A stretch of DNA of 64,000 nucleotides from Saksenaea vasiformis B4078 (Eukaryota; Mucoromycota; Mucoromycetes; Mucorales; Saksenaeaceae): positions 62,001 to 126,000 of the forward strand of contig JNDT01002356.1 in the NCBI GenBank assembly GCA_000697055.1, written 5' to 3'. Made by a program: the position numbers and the translations under genes. This document shows, piece after piece, positions 22,214-60,990 of this stretch (the stretch's first letter is position 1; every line of letters starts with the position of its first letter). A model generated the notes under the pieces. The model was not told where the DNA came from. It searched no databases and worked only from the letters and a program-made list of their open reading frames with translations.

Positions 22214-22549
22214 ATGAGTACAAAGCAACAGCAGCCATGGGATCATACACCCCCAACCTCGGATGAGGCTTGGCGAATGTCTTCCATTGCTACGTTAAAT
22301 CAATCAATGGATCCATACATCTTGACAGATACTGAACTCCAGCGAGAGTTGGCCATTTTTGCTAATGCTCAGTTCCCCTCCGAACCAAAATCCGAGGGAT
22401 TGGACAAGTCATGCGAAAAACTGGAATGCGATCCGATTGATTTTTCTTTCCTCATGAAATCTCAGTCCTCACCTACAGTTCTTAGCCATGGTAACTACAA
22501 AAAGAAAAAAAAAGGGTGTGTGTGTGTGTGTCTGTGTGTGTGTGTGTGT

Positions 22550-22593
<44 letters not shown>

Positions 22594-23112
22594 GTGTGCG
22601 TGTGTGTGCTAATCCTTTTTCTTTTTTCTCTAGAAAAATCGCCTCTTGCAAGCCCCACTACCACCTCGCCTACTTCTACAACGTATGGAGAGGCACCATG
22701 GATGGACCACTTCATGTCTCTCATGTCAGTTGTCGCAGAGCAACCACCTCACCCTAAACAAGGACACGAAGTGCCGATTGCACCAGTATCTGCTTCTTCC
22801 TCGAGTTCTACTGTGGTAGATAAGGCACCGGAACCCACCAAATCGACCAGTACCAAAAAGAAGCCGAAAGACAAGGAATATATCGAAGATAAGCGACGTC
22901 GTAACACGGCAGCGAGCGCCCGGTTCCGAGTCAAGAAGAAAATACGAGAACAGGAAATGCAACGTACAGCCTGCGAAATGACAGAAAAGGCCAATCGCTT
23001 GGAACTTCGCGTGAAAGAACTGGAACGTGAAATCCAGTGGCTCAAATCGTTGATCGTCGAACAGAACGAGGTCCGCCTGCAGAAGCTGATAGAAGAAAGA
23101 CCAATGAATTAA
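22214..23112 (+). CDS. cys-3: bZIP sulfur regulator, CYS3/MetR family
   Basis: DNA-binding activator of sulfur assimilation genes in filamentous fungi (CYS3 in Neurospora, MetR in Aspergillus; related to yeast Met4). Two exons (22214-22490, 22634-23112) give 251 residues. The C-terminal bZIP has basic region DKRRRNTAASARFRVKKK (about 178-195) with the invariant Asn and Arg, followed by a leucine zipper to about 235 including RLELRVKELEREIQWLKSL, a signature of this subfamily. The N-terminal 170 residues are acidic/Ser-Thr-Pro-rich, fitting an activation and degron region. The single 143-base intron contains a long TG microsatellite. The gene lies 2.6 kb downstream of the SconB/MET30-type ligase gene on the same strand. 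In model fungi that ligase controls this factor. Confidence 0.92.
22516..22609 (+). repeat. (TG)n microsatellite inside the cys-3 intron
   Basis: About 47 near-perfect TG units broken by a few TC and CG variants, lying between donor GTAACT at 22491 and acceptor TAG at 22631-22633. Alternating purine/pyrimidine sequence of this length can adopt Z-DNA and is prone to length change. Confidence 0.95.
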
Positions 23113-49093: not shown

Positions 49094-51475
49094 TTATCCT
49101 GTCACAGTATGAATGCGTTGCCACATGATGATAATTGCAGAACAACCGATAATGGTGAATGCAATTTCCAACGAGGCAACTCCAATTTCTGATACAGCCT
49201 CTGACGAGGTACCCCACACGGCACCTGTCAAGCGTCCAATATAGTTTGACACCTGGACGATCAAAGCACAGACATCAGAAAGTTGGTCTGGGAACAGCTT
49301 TGACATCAGCGAAAGAGTAATCGTGGAAGCAACGTTGTAACCACTGCACACCATGAACCAGGATACACCATAATCAGGCTTGCCTACACCACCGGTACCT
49401 AGACGTGCGATATAGATAATCATGCCGACGAGCGCCGTTCCGAACCCCACGATAGCGGTAGTACGATCTTGAATCTTCTTCGAGTATGCTGTCATTGGTA
49501 CCACAATGACTAGCGTTCCGATACCGATCAAACCGATGAAATTACCAGCGTCCCATTCGTTCCAGCCAAAGTGTTTCGCAGTGAAAATTGGAATGTTGGC
49601 CTCCCAGGCACCCAGTTCGAAAAACACGGAGAAGGCAATGAAGGACATCACGACGGTAATTGCAAGCATACCATAAGAACCTTTCTTGAACATTTGGAGA
49701 ACACTTCGTGTTGCTGCCCTGTCTGAAAGTGCCGATTTCGGAATATCTTTAAAGAAAAGGACGACACTGATCCAGTAGACAAGCCAGATGCACGCCATGA
49801 CCCAGCCAGCAATCGTGTTCATGTTCATAATGACACCACGATCTCCTACGCGCGCCAGCTGTCCACCTACTAGAGGGCCAATGACCATGCCCAGAGATTG
49901 TGACACTACCAAAAGCGAGCAGCACATCGTCCGCCTGCGGATACCAACAATGCGGGGATCTGTACAATAGCGCTTGACAAAAAACCATCCGGTGAAACCA
50001 AGACCGTTGATAAGTCGTCCAATGAATATCAGATACAAGAATTGCGCCCGGGCAGCAAGGGCGTACAGGACATTACCGACCAAAAACGAGGCGCACGCCA
50101 GATGCAGTGTGGCGATATAGCGGTCCCGCAACAGAGGAATTTGATTTAAAAAGAAGATAGACACAATGGAAGTCAGTGTATTGCCGCCAATGACCAGACC
50201 ACTGAAGACGTCGTCGGCGCCGAGCGAATTAGCGTAGTTTGTTACGGTGGGAATGATAATATAGAAAGAGATATTGAAGAGGAAGTTTGCCATCAAGATG
50301 AGAAATAACGAAATTTTTGGTGGTAGTTTGTTGTCCTCTTCTATGATTTCGTCAACAATGGCCGATACATCTTCTGCACAGCCAAAGGACAGAGAAAAGC
50401 CGGCATCGCCATGACCATAACTGTGTATGATTCTCGAGAGTTTATCACTGTTATGAAGCCGCTTCTCACGTTCGACTCGCAAAGTTGGTCTTCTGAAAGG
50501 AAGCAGTGCTACTTCAACTGGCCGGTTGTGGTCAAGATCACCCTTTGCGATATCGGGGTAGAATTCAATGGTGTGATCGAACTGTTTCTGAAGCGCTGGG
50601 TGATTCTCTAAGCTGATGTTCAAGTTCCGCTGATTCGCCTCCGCCAAACCAGTGAGAAGCAGAAGCTGACTGCTCTTCAAAGGGACAATAGATATTGGCT
50701 TGCCGCTATCATCGGCTGGGGCCAACACCATCGGCTGTGTTACTTGAGGAAATTTACTCCCATCGTTGATCATACGTAACGACGTATGTCTCTGCGGGTA
50801 TACTGTGTCATCCGTTGCTAATTGGTGCCCAGCTAGCCCTGTGCTGTTGACCAGGACATCTGCACCATACTCTCGCAATAGAGAAACTTCTTGGTAGTAA
50901 AGATCTCCTTCAATTGTCCTCTCGACAATGGTGGCGCCGAGAGCCTTTACAAGATTTGTAATCCACAACATGAACCGGTTGCAGTCAATGACTGGTGCAA
51001 GATACTGATAGCAATCAACGACGCCAGAATCCTTGTTGATACCAACGTCATCAATAATGGCTGGATCGTGACGAAATTGCTTGACATGTTTTTTGATCTC
51101 ATTCATCTCTTCGGTTAGCTGCGGATTTTCGGCAATGGGTTGCCGAAAGAAGTAATTCGAGAGTAGCATGCTGACGCCGCTCTTCTCGCTTAGTTCTGGA
51201 TCGCTTGCTATCTTGTCAAATTTCTCATATGCAACTTTAGACCATCGCGCAGCATCTTCGGGAAGAGTCGACTCCGCATGTGAAGCGTCGGTAGCGGTGG
51301 CCCAACTCCACAATACACCTGTGGTCTGAGAAGTGATTTTTGTATCAACAGAGGCGTACTGTTTGGAAATAACGGTAACGCGGTGGCCCTTATCAAGAAG
51401 TATCCAGGCAGTAGTTAATCCTACGATACCACTCCCGACAACTAGGATGTGCGGTTTTGATCGAAAAGTATCCAT
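49094..51475 (-). CDS. D-amino-acid-oxidase-like domain fused to a major facilitator transporter
   Basis: One uninterrupted exon encodes 793 residues. Residues 1-380 are a DAO-fold FAD domain: Rossmann motif VVGSGIVGL (12-20), LVNSTGLAG (208-216), TVYPQRHTSL, and the C-terminal HSYGHGDAGFSLSFGCAEDV (351-370). After only about seven linker residues (KLPPK) a complete MFS transporter begins, with about 12 hydrophobic helices between 387 and 787, a RDRY segment after helix 2 (a variant of MFS motif A), and FIGRLINGLGFTGWFF in helix 4. The free paralog at 58942 keeps the substrate-binding Arg in VGLRPFR; here it is VALLPFR (Leu325). The Tyr of the AYIIPR-type motif is Ser262, and the GG of LILGG is TG. 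Thus FAD binding looks possible but D-amino-acid oxidation doubtful. The product would be a membrane protein with a large cytosolic N-terminal domain. Transport substrate unknown. Confidence 0.93.
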   Translation of the reverse strand: MDTFRSKPHILVVGSGIVGLTTAWILLDKGHRVTVISKQYASVDTKITSQTTGVLWSWATATDASHAESTLPEDAARWSKVAYEKFDKIASDPELSEKSGVSMLLSNYFFRQPIAENPQLTEEMNEIKKHVKQFRHDPAIIDDVGINKDSGVVDCYQYLAPVIDCNRFMLWITNLVKALGATIVERTIEGDLYYQEVSLLREYGADVLVNSTGLAGHQLATDDTVYPQRHTSLRMINDGSKFPQVTQPMVLAPADDSGKPISIVPLKSSQLLLLTGLAEANQRNLNISLENHPALQKQFDHTIEFYPDIAKGDLDHNRPVEVALLPFRRPTLRVEREKRLHNSDKLSRIIHSYGHGDAGFSLSFGCAEDVSAIVDEIIEEDNKLPPKISLFLILMANFLFNISFYIIIPTVTNYANSLGADDVFSGLVIGGNTLTSIVSIFFLNQIPLLRDRYIATLHLACASFLVGNVLYALAARAQFLYLIFIGRLINGLGFTGWFFVKRYCTDPRIVGIRRRTMCCSLLVVSQSLGMVIGPLVGGQLARVGDRGVIMNMNTIAGWVMACIWLVYWISVVLFFKDIPKSALSDRAATRSVLQMFKKGSYGMLAITVVMSFIAFSVFFELGAWEANIPIFTAKHFGWNEWDAGNFIGLIGIGTLVIVVPMTAYSKKIQDRTTAIVGFGTALVGMIIYIARLGTGGVGKPDYGVSWFMVCSGYNVASTITLSLMSKLFPDQLSDVCALIVQVSNYIGRLTGAVWGTSSEAVSEIGVASLEIAFTIIGCSAIIIMWQRIHTVTG

Positions 51476-58941: not shown

Positions 58942-60132
58942 ATGACCTCTTCTTACCATACAAAGCCTCATGCCCTCATCGTCGGTGGTGGTGTAACTGG
59001 TTTAACTACGGCTTGGACATTACTGGAGAAAGGTTACCGCGTTACCATCATCTCCAAGGAATACGCTTCAGAAGACAAGAAGATCACTTCGCAGATTGCT
59101 GGTGCTCTGTGGGAATGGCCTCCAGCCGTGTGTGGTCGTCATACCGATCTTATTTCTCTTACAAACTCCAAACGCTGGTGTATGGTAGCCTGGGACAGAT
59201 TTGACAAGATGGCTGCGGATAGAGAACTTAGCGAAAAGTCTGGCGTCAAGATGAGACTAGCAAACTTCTTCTTCCGTACTCCTGTTGCCGAAGATCCCTA
59301 TCAGCTTGCTAAAATGAACGAGATCAAGGCCAATGTCAGGGGTTTCCGCCACGATGCTGCTATTATTGACGAGCTTGGTGTAAGCAAGGAGTTCGGTGTG
59401 GTAGACTGCTATCAACATCTTGCACCAGTTATTGATACCGATCGCTATATGGAATGGCTAATCGATCACGTAAAGAAGCTGGGAGCTTCTGTGTTGATAA
59501 GAGAAGTCCGTGGAGATCTCTTCCAACAGGAGGAATCACTTCTCCGTCAATATGGTGCCGACGTTTTGATTAACTGCACTGGTCTCGCCGGCAAGGAATT
59601 AGCATCGGATGACACAGTTTACCCACTCCGTGGATCTCTTGTGCGTGTTATCAACGACGGCACCAAGTTTCCCCGTATTACCCAGGCAATGTCTCTCTCA
59701 TTGGATGGTCGCGAGGGTGAAAACGATCTTATCTTCATTGTGCCTCGCAACGACAACCTTCTCATTCTTGGTGGTATGGCCGAGCCACACAAGTATGATT
59801 TAGATATCAATCTGGAAAACTACCCACCCATTCGCGAGATGTACGAACGTAATGTCAGATTCTATCCTGACCTTGGCAAGGGCGAGATCGATCCCAAGTA
59901 TCCTGTGGCTGTCGGTTTAAGACCATTCAGAGCACAAAACGTCAAGGTCGAACGTGAAAAGAGATTACACAATGGGGAACGAAAATCAAAATTGGTCCAC
60001 AGTTACGGACAGGGCGGTGCAGGTTTCTCTCTCTCATTTGGATGCGCAGATGATGTGGCTGACATCGTTGATCATATATTGGCTGAAGACAAATCTACAA
60101 CTTCTACTGCGCCAGTTAAGGCCAACTTATAA
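58942..60132 (+). CDS. D-amino-acid oxidase (FAD-dependent)
   Basis: Oxidises D-amino acids to keto acids, ammonia and hydrogen peroxide. Single exon, 396 residues, from the ATG giving MTSSYHTKPH just before the Rossmann motif LIVGGGVTGLTTAW (12-25). An upstream in-frame extension uses only a TTG start and an unconserved leader. Family marks: GVVDCYQHLAPVID, LINCTGLAGKEL (209-220), DTVYPLRGSLV with the conserved Arg-Gly, LILGGMAEP, VGLRPFR with the carboxylate-binding Arg327, VEREKRLHNG, and HSYGQGGAGFSLSFGCADD at the end. The usual Tyr in the YIIPR motif is Phe265 here, which may change substrate range. It ends in ANL, not a standard peroxisomal SKL. It is closely similar throughout to the oxidase half of the fusion protein on the opposite strand. 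Confidence 0.93.
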   Translation: MTSSYHTKPHALIVGGGVTGLTTAWTLLEKGYRVTIISKEYASEDKKITSQIAGALWEWPPAVCGRHTDLISLTNSKRWCMVAWDRFDKMAADRELSEKSGVKMRLANFFFRTPVAEDPYQLAKMNEIKANVRGFRHDAAIIDELGVSKEFGVVDCYQHLAPVIDTDRYMEWLIDHVKKLGASVLIREVRGDLFQQEESLLRQYGADVLINCTGLAGKELASDDTVYPLRGSLVRVINDGTKFPRITQAMSLSLDGREGENDLIFIVPRNDNLLILGGMAEPHKYDLDINLENYPPIREMYERNVRFYPDLGKGEIDPKYPVAVGLRPFRAQNVKVEREKRLHNGERKSKLVHSYGQGGAGFSLSFGCADDVADIVDHILAEDKSTTSTAPVKANL

Positions 60133-60450: not shown

Positions 60451-60990
60451 TCACCTCTTCATCAGCCTTTCATACATCTGTGCCTTTGCTGTATGCTTCA
60501 ATTTATCGCTGATTTCGCTTGAAGTATCTTCGTATCTTTGTAGGCGCTTGATCTGGAGAGATGCGCTGTCCAGACTGGCAAGTAAAAGCTGTTGAAGCCC
60601 TTTAAGCGCATAGTCACATTTGGCACGCACTTCCTTCTTTATGTCGGACCAGTATCTCTCGATACAATTACACTCCAAGTGAAATTCTGGATAAAGATCG
60701 AAGAGCAGATGATGTTTGAGAAGGATCTCTTGAAGGGCGGTCCGCTGGAATTTAAAATCATCTTCAGCGAGACGGTGATATGCACAGCTGTTTTCTGCAC
60801 TGTTTTCGCAGCGAAGTCACCATAATTTACCTTGCCTTCCAGGGGAATGATCGTCGCCATGCCATAACCGCCTTTCATCCAGTACCGCTTTCATGCCTTT
60901 GAACACTTCGTAGATCTTTTCTTTTCCAGACTTTGTTCTCTTTACTTTTCTCCAGTAAAATGTCTGCGTTTTGGTATGACCGTTGCGTAC
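60451..60990 (-). mobile_element. DDE transposase remnant
   Basis: Read on the minus strand from about 60985, the translation runs RNGHTKTQTFYWRK, GMKAVLDERRLW, then, after frame breaks and a stop, FKFQRTALQEIL, DLYPEFHLECNCIERYWSD, CDYALKGLQQLL and a charged tail to the stop at 60451. The YPxFHxExNxIERYW block, with the final catalytic Glu, and CDY are typical of a DDE transposase-like family abundant in Mucoromycota and other fungi. The earlier catalytic Asp residues cannot be located and the frame is broken, so this is a dead copy. Confidence 0.6.

Follow-up and report, generated by a model that had tools for sequence, protein, structure and literature searches.

One gene of Saksenaea vasiformis B4078 encodes a complete MFS transporter that carries at its N-terminus a domain descended from the DAO family, and this domain has probably ceased to oxidise amino acids. 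The gene lies in the window, the whole stretch of 64,000 nucleotides that was analysed, which comprises bases 62001-126000 of the contig that carries it (C624). It is the open reading frame at 49094..51475 on the minus strand, with its start ATG at 51475-51473 and its stop at 49096-49094, and the frame is open upstream to 51538. The product of 793 amino acids, P0001, is read in an unbroken frame for which an intron is not needed. Pfam DAO matches residues 10-371 over nearly the whole profile, with 82 bits against a cut-off of 27.9, and Pfam MFS_1 matches residues 394-751 over positions 2-346 of the 347 in the profile, with 70.3 bits against 33.4. The GC3 of the two halves is alike, at 0.48 and 0.53. 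A scan for bacterial promoters and terminators, a type ill-suited to a fungus, returned counts at chance level.

The AlphaFold2 model of P0001 has a mean pLDDT of 90.4 and a pTM of 0.83, with low pLDDT in the blocks 41-50 (59) and 61-70 (52). It contains a DAO part at residues 9-381 and twelve long helices at 387-783, and fold comparison matches it to both DAO folds and MFS folds. On the minus strand of the window, the DAO-derived domain (residues 8-381) is at 50333..51454, the joint NKLPP (residues 382-386), leading from the last DAO helix to TM1, is at 50318..50332, and the transporter (residues 387-783) is at 49127..50317. With a Pfam score above the cut-off and a full-length fold, P0001 belongs to the DAO superfamily (PF01266), and with a whole-profile match to MFS_1 and a twelve-helix MFS fold it belongs to the MFS transporters. 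The preliminary description had claimed an uninterrupted, intronless frame of DAO and MFS domains with about 12 transmembrane helices; its coordinates and domain limits are correct, the strand being minus, and the frame, the Pfam matches and the twelve long helices of the model bear out the remainder.

The fusion is also present elsewhere. Out of some 5.8 billion proteins, the 8000 candidates sharing most words with P0001 were scored, and these yielded at least 36 matches at E 0.001 or better. Full-length fusions are found in Apophysomyces sp. BC1034 (P0002, 79% identical over 100% of the query), in A. ossiformis (P0003, 74% over 100%) and as a protein from the assembly of the fern Adiantum nelumboides (P0004, 46% over 98%), and these are deposited as 'hypothetical protein'. 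By protein identity, the window stands close to Apophysomyces. Because the full-length fusion recurs in other assemblies, an assembly chimera, already considered unlikely in the preliminary description, is ruled out. The order of the domains, DAO and then MFS, is the same in all three homologues, and the joint is uninterrupted in P0002 and P0003, the opposite of the separate genes that had been named as the outcome speaking against a fusion. A full-text search of the open-access literature, judged by title and abstract, found no description of a DAO-MFS fusion, which agrees with the earlier view that no transporter with an N-terminal DAO domain had been described. A soluble domain at the N-terminus of an MFS protein is in itself a known arrangement. 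In the SPX-MFS proteins (PHT5/VPT), such a domain stands ahead of the transporter, according to PMC13153306; the likeness to the fusion is one of architecture, SPX being an unrelated helical domain.

The fused DAO half has lost the residues that hold the substrate. In hDAAO, Arg283 and Tyr228 hold the substrate carboxylate and Gly313 the amino group, as set out in PMC6279847, and PMC8260693 describes Arg278 of DASPO, the equivalent of hDAAO Arg283, as conserved in all known amino- and hydroxy-acid oxidases. An alignment was made of hDAAO, six fused N-termini and 122 stand-alone DAOs, the last being the own genome's 2 paralogues and 120 listed of the 141 found. Position 283 is Arg in 122/122 of the stand-alone proteins and Leu, Leu and Val in P0001, P0002 and P0003, respectively. 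Position 228 is Phe in 122/122 and Ser in each of these three fused proteins, and position 313 is Gly in 116 of the 122 (Asp in 4, Val in 2) and Asp, Asn and Asp in the three. In P0001, the residue in place of Arg283 is Leu325 (50501..50503, minus strand) and that in place of Tyr228 is Ser262 (50690..50692, minus strand). The residue after 'VP' is Arg in 122/122 stand-alone proteins and in P0004 and, as read from the aligned segments, Leu, Leu and Val in P0001, P0002 and P0003; the K given for P0001 in this alignment column comes from a one-residue shift. P0004 has Arg, Phe and Gly at positions 283, 228 and 313.

Unlike hDAAO and hDASPO, the fusion of the window is without the carboxylate Arg, has Ser at 228 and no Gly at 313, and has a transporter attached. 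The residues that mark a functional D-amino-acid oxidase, the carboxylate Arg and the contacts at 228 and 313, are likewise missing from P0002 and P0003. The motifs GxGxxG and HxYGxG are retained in all three proteins, and P0001 keeps the dinucleotide motif GSGIVG at residues 14-19 (51419..51436, minus strand). Since the substrate-holding residues are lost while the FAD-binding fold is kept, it is likely that amino acids are no longer oxidised, and the DAO half of P0001, P0002 and P0003 would appear to be catalytically dead.

The losses extend beyond the substrate pocket. There are 73 near-invariant sites with at least 98% conservation in the stand-alone set, of which 53 are kept in P0001, 59 in P0002 and 54 in P0003; P0004 keeps 70, and the own genome's stand-alone copies keep 73 and 72. 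Across P0001, P0002 and P0003, 45 of the sites are kept throughout, 13 are missing from a single protein, 5 from two of them and 10 from every one. At 8 of these 10 the proteins have differing residues, and at 2 they share one new residue. Sites identical within the three make up 48-52% of each of four family-conservation bins and 64% of the most conserved bin (Fisher p 0.037). The differing residues at most of the triple losses, together with this weak tie to family conservation, form a pattern as in loosened constraint. With limits drawn from general DAAO knowledge, the FAD half is better conserved than the substrate half in every fused pair, at 0.71 and 0.63 (Fisher p 0.12), 0.65 and 0.52 (p 0.02), and 0.77 and 0.60 (p 0.0007). 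The three stand-alone pairs are mixed, with 0.86 and 0.93 (p 0.037), 0.82 and 0.81 (p 1), and 0.74 and 0.82 (p 0.1).

The fused DAO half has also diverged faster than its partner. When the window is compared with BC1034, identity is 68.2% for the fused DAO halves and 89.5% for the MFS halves, and the stand-alone DAO of the window (58942-60132) is 87.8% identical to its BC1034 counterpart, P0038. Based on 2000 site resamples of the distances between the two, the divergence of the fused DAO half is 3.63 times that of the MFS half (95% 2.55-5.33) and 3.08 times that of the stand-alone DAO (95% 2.18-4.40), and the stand-alone DAO has 1.18 times the divergence of the MFS half (95% 0.78-1.80). When assigned to branches, the ratio of the DAO rate to the MFS rate is highest on that of the window, with 6.8 (4.1-12.5), followed by A. 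ossiformis with 3.5 (2.3-5.5) and BC1034 with 1.67 (95% 0.95-2.95). The acceleration of the fused DAO is clear on the window and A. ossiformis branches and is not clear on the BC1034 branch, where a ratio of only 1.67 suggests that the domain may be constrained.

With positions 283, 228 and 313 changed, the FAD motifs kept and the DAO half diverging faster, a transporter with a pseudo-oxidase domain is the most likely explanation. The MFS half would be the working part, a 12-helix transporter, and from the usual MFS topology its N-terminus, and hence the DAO-derived domain, is most likely on the cytosolic side. The best guess for this domain is an accessory role, be it docking, stability or tuning of the transporter in response to a ligand or to flavin, by analogy with what the soluble SPX domains are thought to do for the SPX-MFS transporters. 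It may also be a flavin or ligand sensor akin to a transceptor, as the preliminary description had suggested, the likeness here being one of architecture. The domain would be under weakening constraint, with the proteins of the oomycete type retaining only a small Rossmann-like remnant. The DAO half may thus be regulatory, structural or decaying, and the choice between a domain that serves the transporter and a decaying passenger is nearly even: a kept role is favoured by the confidently predicted fold, by the preservation of the FAD half and by the branch of BC1034, and decay by the remnants, by the divergence rates and by losses scattered over the proteins. A more specific proposal, which is speculative and rather unlikely as it stands, is that a retired, FAD-folded oxidase on TM1 tunes the MFS protein through the redox state of its flavin or through an amine-type ligand. 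The stages of such a flavin-gated transporter might run from the intact active site of the Adiantum-assembly protein, through the pseudo-oxidases P0001, P0002 and P0003, to the oomycete-type stub.

The alternative that survives best, with a substantial though minority chance of being correct, is that the DAO half is a functionless passenger, kept since translation has to run through it to reach the MFS part, and drifting and being pared down. The faster divergence of the fused half is what would be expected of this, as are the scattered losses of near-invariant sites and their weak tie to family conservation. Shortened DAO-like stretches ahead of the MFS part are found in P0008 of Pythium insidiosum (628 aa, with a stretch of 222 residues) and in the metagenome protein P0158 (576 aa, 170 residues). 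Both are below the Pfam DAO cut-off, at 16.9 and 17.0 bits against 27.9, so that their DAO descent rests on alignment and position, and the remnant of P0158 is above the Pfam cut-off for Pyr_redox. The two remnants are 25.8% identical to each other, near the level of unrelated short sequences, and their MFS parts are 77.6% identical. Relatives with the MFS part only also exist, and among the matches listed they are from Gaertneriomyces, Sorochytrium, Phlyctochytrium, Saprolegnia and Achlya, with more distant ones in Basidiomycota. Those of the zoosporic fungi and oomycetes (P0005-P0007, P0009, P0159 and P0160) are 47-54% identical to the MFS half and, like the fusion, have a transporter that begins with LPP or MPP ahead of TM1, but their deposited models are without the DAO domain. 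In P0006, the MFS-only protein from Sorochytrium, the short N-terminus before TM1 can be loosely aligned to the final DAO helix seen in the fusions, which could mean that a DAO half was once there, that the gene model is truncated, or nothing more than chance. Against a mere passenger, the whole DAO fold is still confidently predicted, the FAD motifs have been retained in P0001, P0002 and P0003 with the FAD half outlasting the substrate half, and the BC1034 branch is not clearly accelerated.

It is unlikely, but worth considering, that the loss of the carboxylate clamp has instead made the DAO half an amine oxidase, working with an MFS protein that carries amines. The laboratory variant DAAO(Y228L/R283G) reportedly oxidises amines, and the existence of a variant at these two positions makes a turn to amine oxidation possible. 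The same positions, 228 and 283, are altered in the fusions and in this variant, which is named in the title of structure 4yjd. The pocket replacements are alike in P0001, P0002 and P0003 (L/L/V, S/S/S and D/N/D), as might be the case if a new ligand had been acquired and binding not simply lost. Among the top fold matches for the MFS half are NorA, SotB, VMAT and VAChT, antiporters of drugs and monoamines of the DHA1 type, with VMAT and VAChT carrying monoamines and acetylcholine and NorA being a drug antiporter. However, the identity to these antiporters, which have no enzyme-derived domain, is 11-16%, and the matches are unspecific, with phosphate, choline and oxalate carriers scoring nearly as well, so the transported substrate cannot be read from them. 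The change of Gly313 to Asp or Asn, the accelerated divergence and the loss of many other near-invariant sites also tell against a new enzymatic activity. Other searches with the MFS half gave no NCBIfam model at E 0.01 and nothing under E 1 in a single-sequence search of the PDB. When the PDB sequences were searched with a profile at E 0.1, FLVCR2 alone came up, as two sequences (E 1.9e-7 and 4.9e-7). The stretch 'RYCTDPRIVG..RRRT' of the MFS half may resemble CLN7/MFSD8 and PHT5.

There is little to recommend the possibility that the two halves are not one protein, either because the DAO and MFS parts are transcribed or spliced into products of their own or through an accident of annotation or assembly. 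In P0001 the stretch between 249 and 395 is free of Met, and Met395 is inside TM1. The stretches without Met are between 249 and 515 in P0002, between 292 and 389 in P0003 and between 292 and 390 in P0004. Because no suitable Met is ahead of TM1, the MFS half of these four proteins is without an ordinary start of its own, and a separate start of that kind is rejected for each of them. The same uninterrupted joint is present in the assemblies of P0001, P0002 and P0003, and the spacing from the SFGCA motif to the joint motif is similar in five proteins, being 15, 15, 15, 18 and 17 residues in P0001, P0002, P0003, P0004 and P0008, respectively. The one point in favour of separate products comes from P. 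insidiosum, where the Met at 224 of P0008, immediately before TM1, could start the MFS part alone, so that the remnant need not be in every product. The four MFS-only proteins inspected have a Met 12-48 residues before the ANFLF motif of TM1. In the own-genome assembly (38.7 Mb in 666 contigs), an MFS query from a chytrid, used in a six-frame search considering best candidates only, gave two matches, each of them in the fusion frame itself, so that this type of MFS was seen there solely as the fusion. P0001 is presumably expressed as a single protein.

Least probable of all is the idea, put forward in the preliminary description, of an active amino-acid oxidase coupled to amino-acid transport: it is unlikely to hold for P0001, with the carboxylate Arg, for which the DASPO equivalent is so widely conserved, and the two other substrate positions replaced in P0001, P0002 and P0003 and with a divergence in the DAO half about three times that of the transporter half and of the stand-alone DAO. 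The point in its favour is P0004, which is built alike but retains Arg, Phe and Gly, along with 70 of the 73 near-invariant sites. The retention of these three residues in P0004 indicates that the DAO-MFS architecture is compatible with catalysis, and the fusion in the lineage of the Adiantum-assembly protein may be catalytic.

The closest sequence kin of the fused half are stand-alone fungal DAOs annotated 'FAD dependent oxidoreductase' (P0038, P0039 and others listed). Two uninterrupted members of this group, with the active-site Arg kept, share the contig of the fusion. One, used here as the comparison gene, is at 58942..60132 on the plus strand of the window and encodes 396 amino acids; the other, L003, encodes 397 amino acids and is at C624:56535-57749, about 4.3 kb to the left of the window. 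They are 79% identical to each other, and with the fusion there are three DAO-type genes of the same subfamily within about 66 kb. In BC1034 the locus tags of the stand-alone P0038 (DFQ28_001520) and of the fusion P0002 (DFQ28_001521) are consecutive. Unlike the fusion, the own genome's two stand-alone copies have no MFS part that could be found behind them. Five MFS queries run through tblastn gave no trace of an MFS on either side of them (best E 2.3), so that there is no sign of recent fission and no support for their being broken fusions. A match running past the stop of L003 was rejected as an MFS trace, being a short hydrophobic run. Further strong matches to the DAO domain are present in the own genome at C475:92643-93743 and C560:159480-160367. 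Beside the stand-alone DAO of the window, a reading frame fragment at 60451-60816 (minus strand) resembles by eye the end of a transposase and has no Pfam match. Elsewhere in the window, at 22495-22612 (plus strand), a GT-type microsatellite is read as a Val-Cys run before a bZIP coding stretch.

Two DAO trees were made, sampling 26 and 12 of the 120 stand-alone DAOs listed, with the 2 own-genome copies added to each. In these trees, the fused half of P0001, P0002 and P0003 groups with stand-alone Apophysomyces copies (support 94/90 and 88/92, neither starred). The topology tests concern groups that were named after the trees had been seen, and their p-values are indicative only. For the DAO half, a single clade of the fused P0001, P0002 and P0003 with the fused Adiantum protein has a p-AU of 0.013, a group of the fused Apophysomyces, fused Adiantum and stand-alone Apophysomyces sequences has a p of 0.020, and the same group with Blyttiomyces added has a p of 0.17. 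For the MFS half, one clade of the six fused rows has a p of 9e-5, or 0.22 when Saprolegnia and Achlya are added, and one clade of fused Apophysomyces and Adiantum has a p of 0.31. There may have been either one old fusion followed by later fissions and losses, or the same two families may have fused more than once.

Among these relatives, the same transporter comes with an oxidase that has an intact active site, is substrate-dead or is reduced to a stub, or with none at all, so that they offer a comparison of what becomes of an enzyme once it is fused to a transporter. If the regulatory role is true, this would be a flavoprotein pseudoenzyme that controls an MFS protein. If the domain is vestigial, it would clearly exemplify an enzyme that persists for no other reason than that translation must pass through it to the domain downstream.
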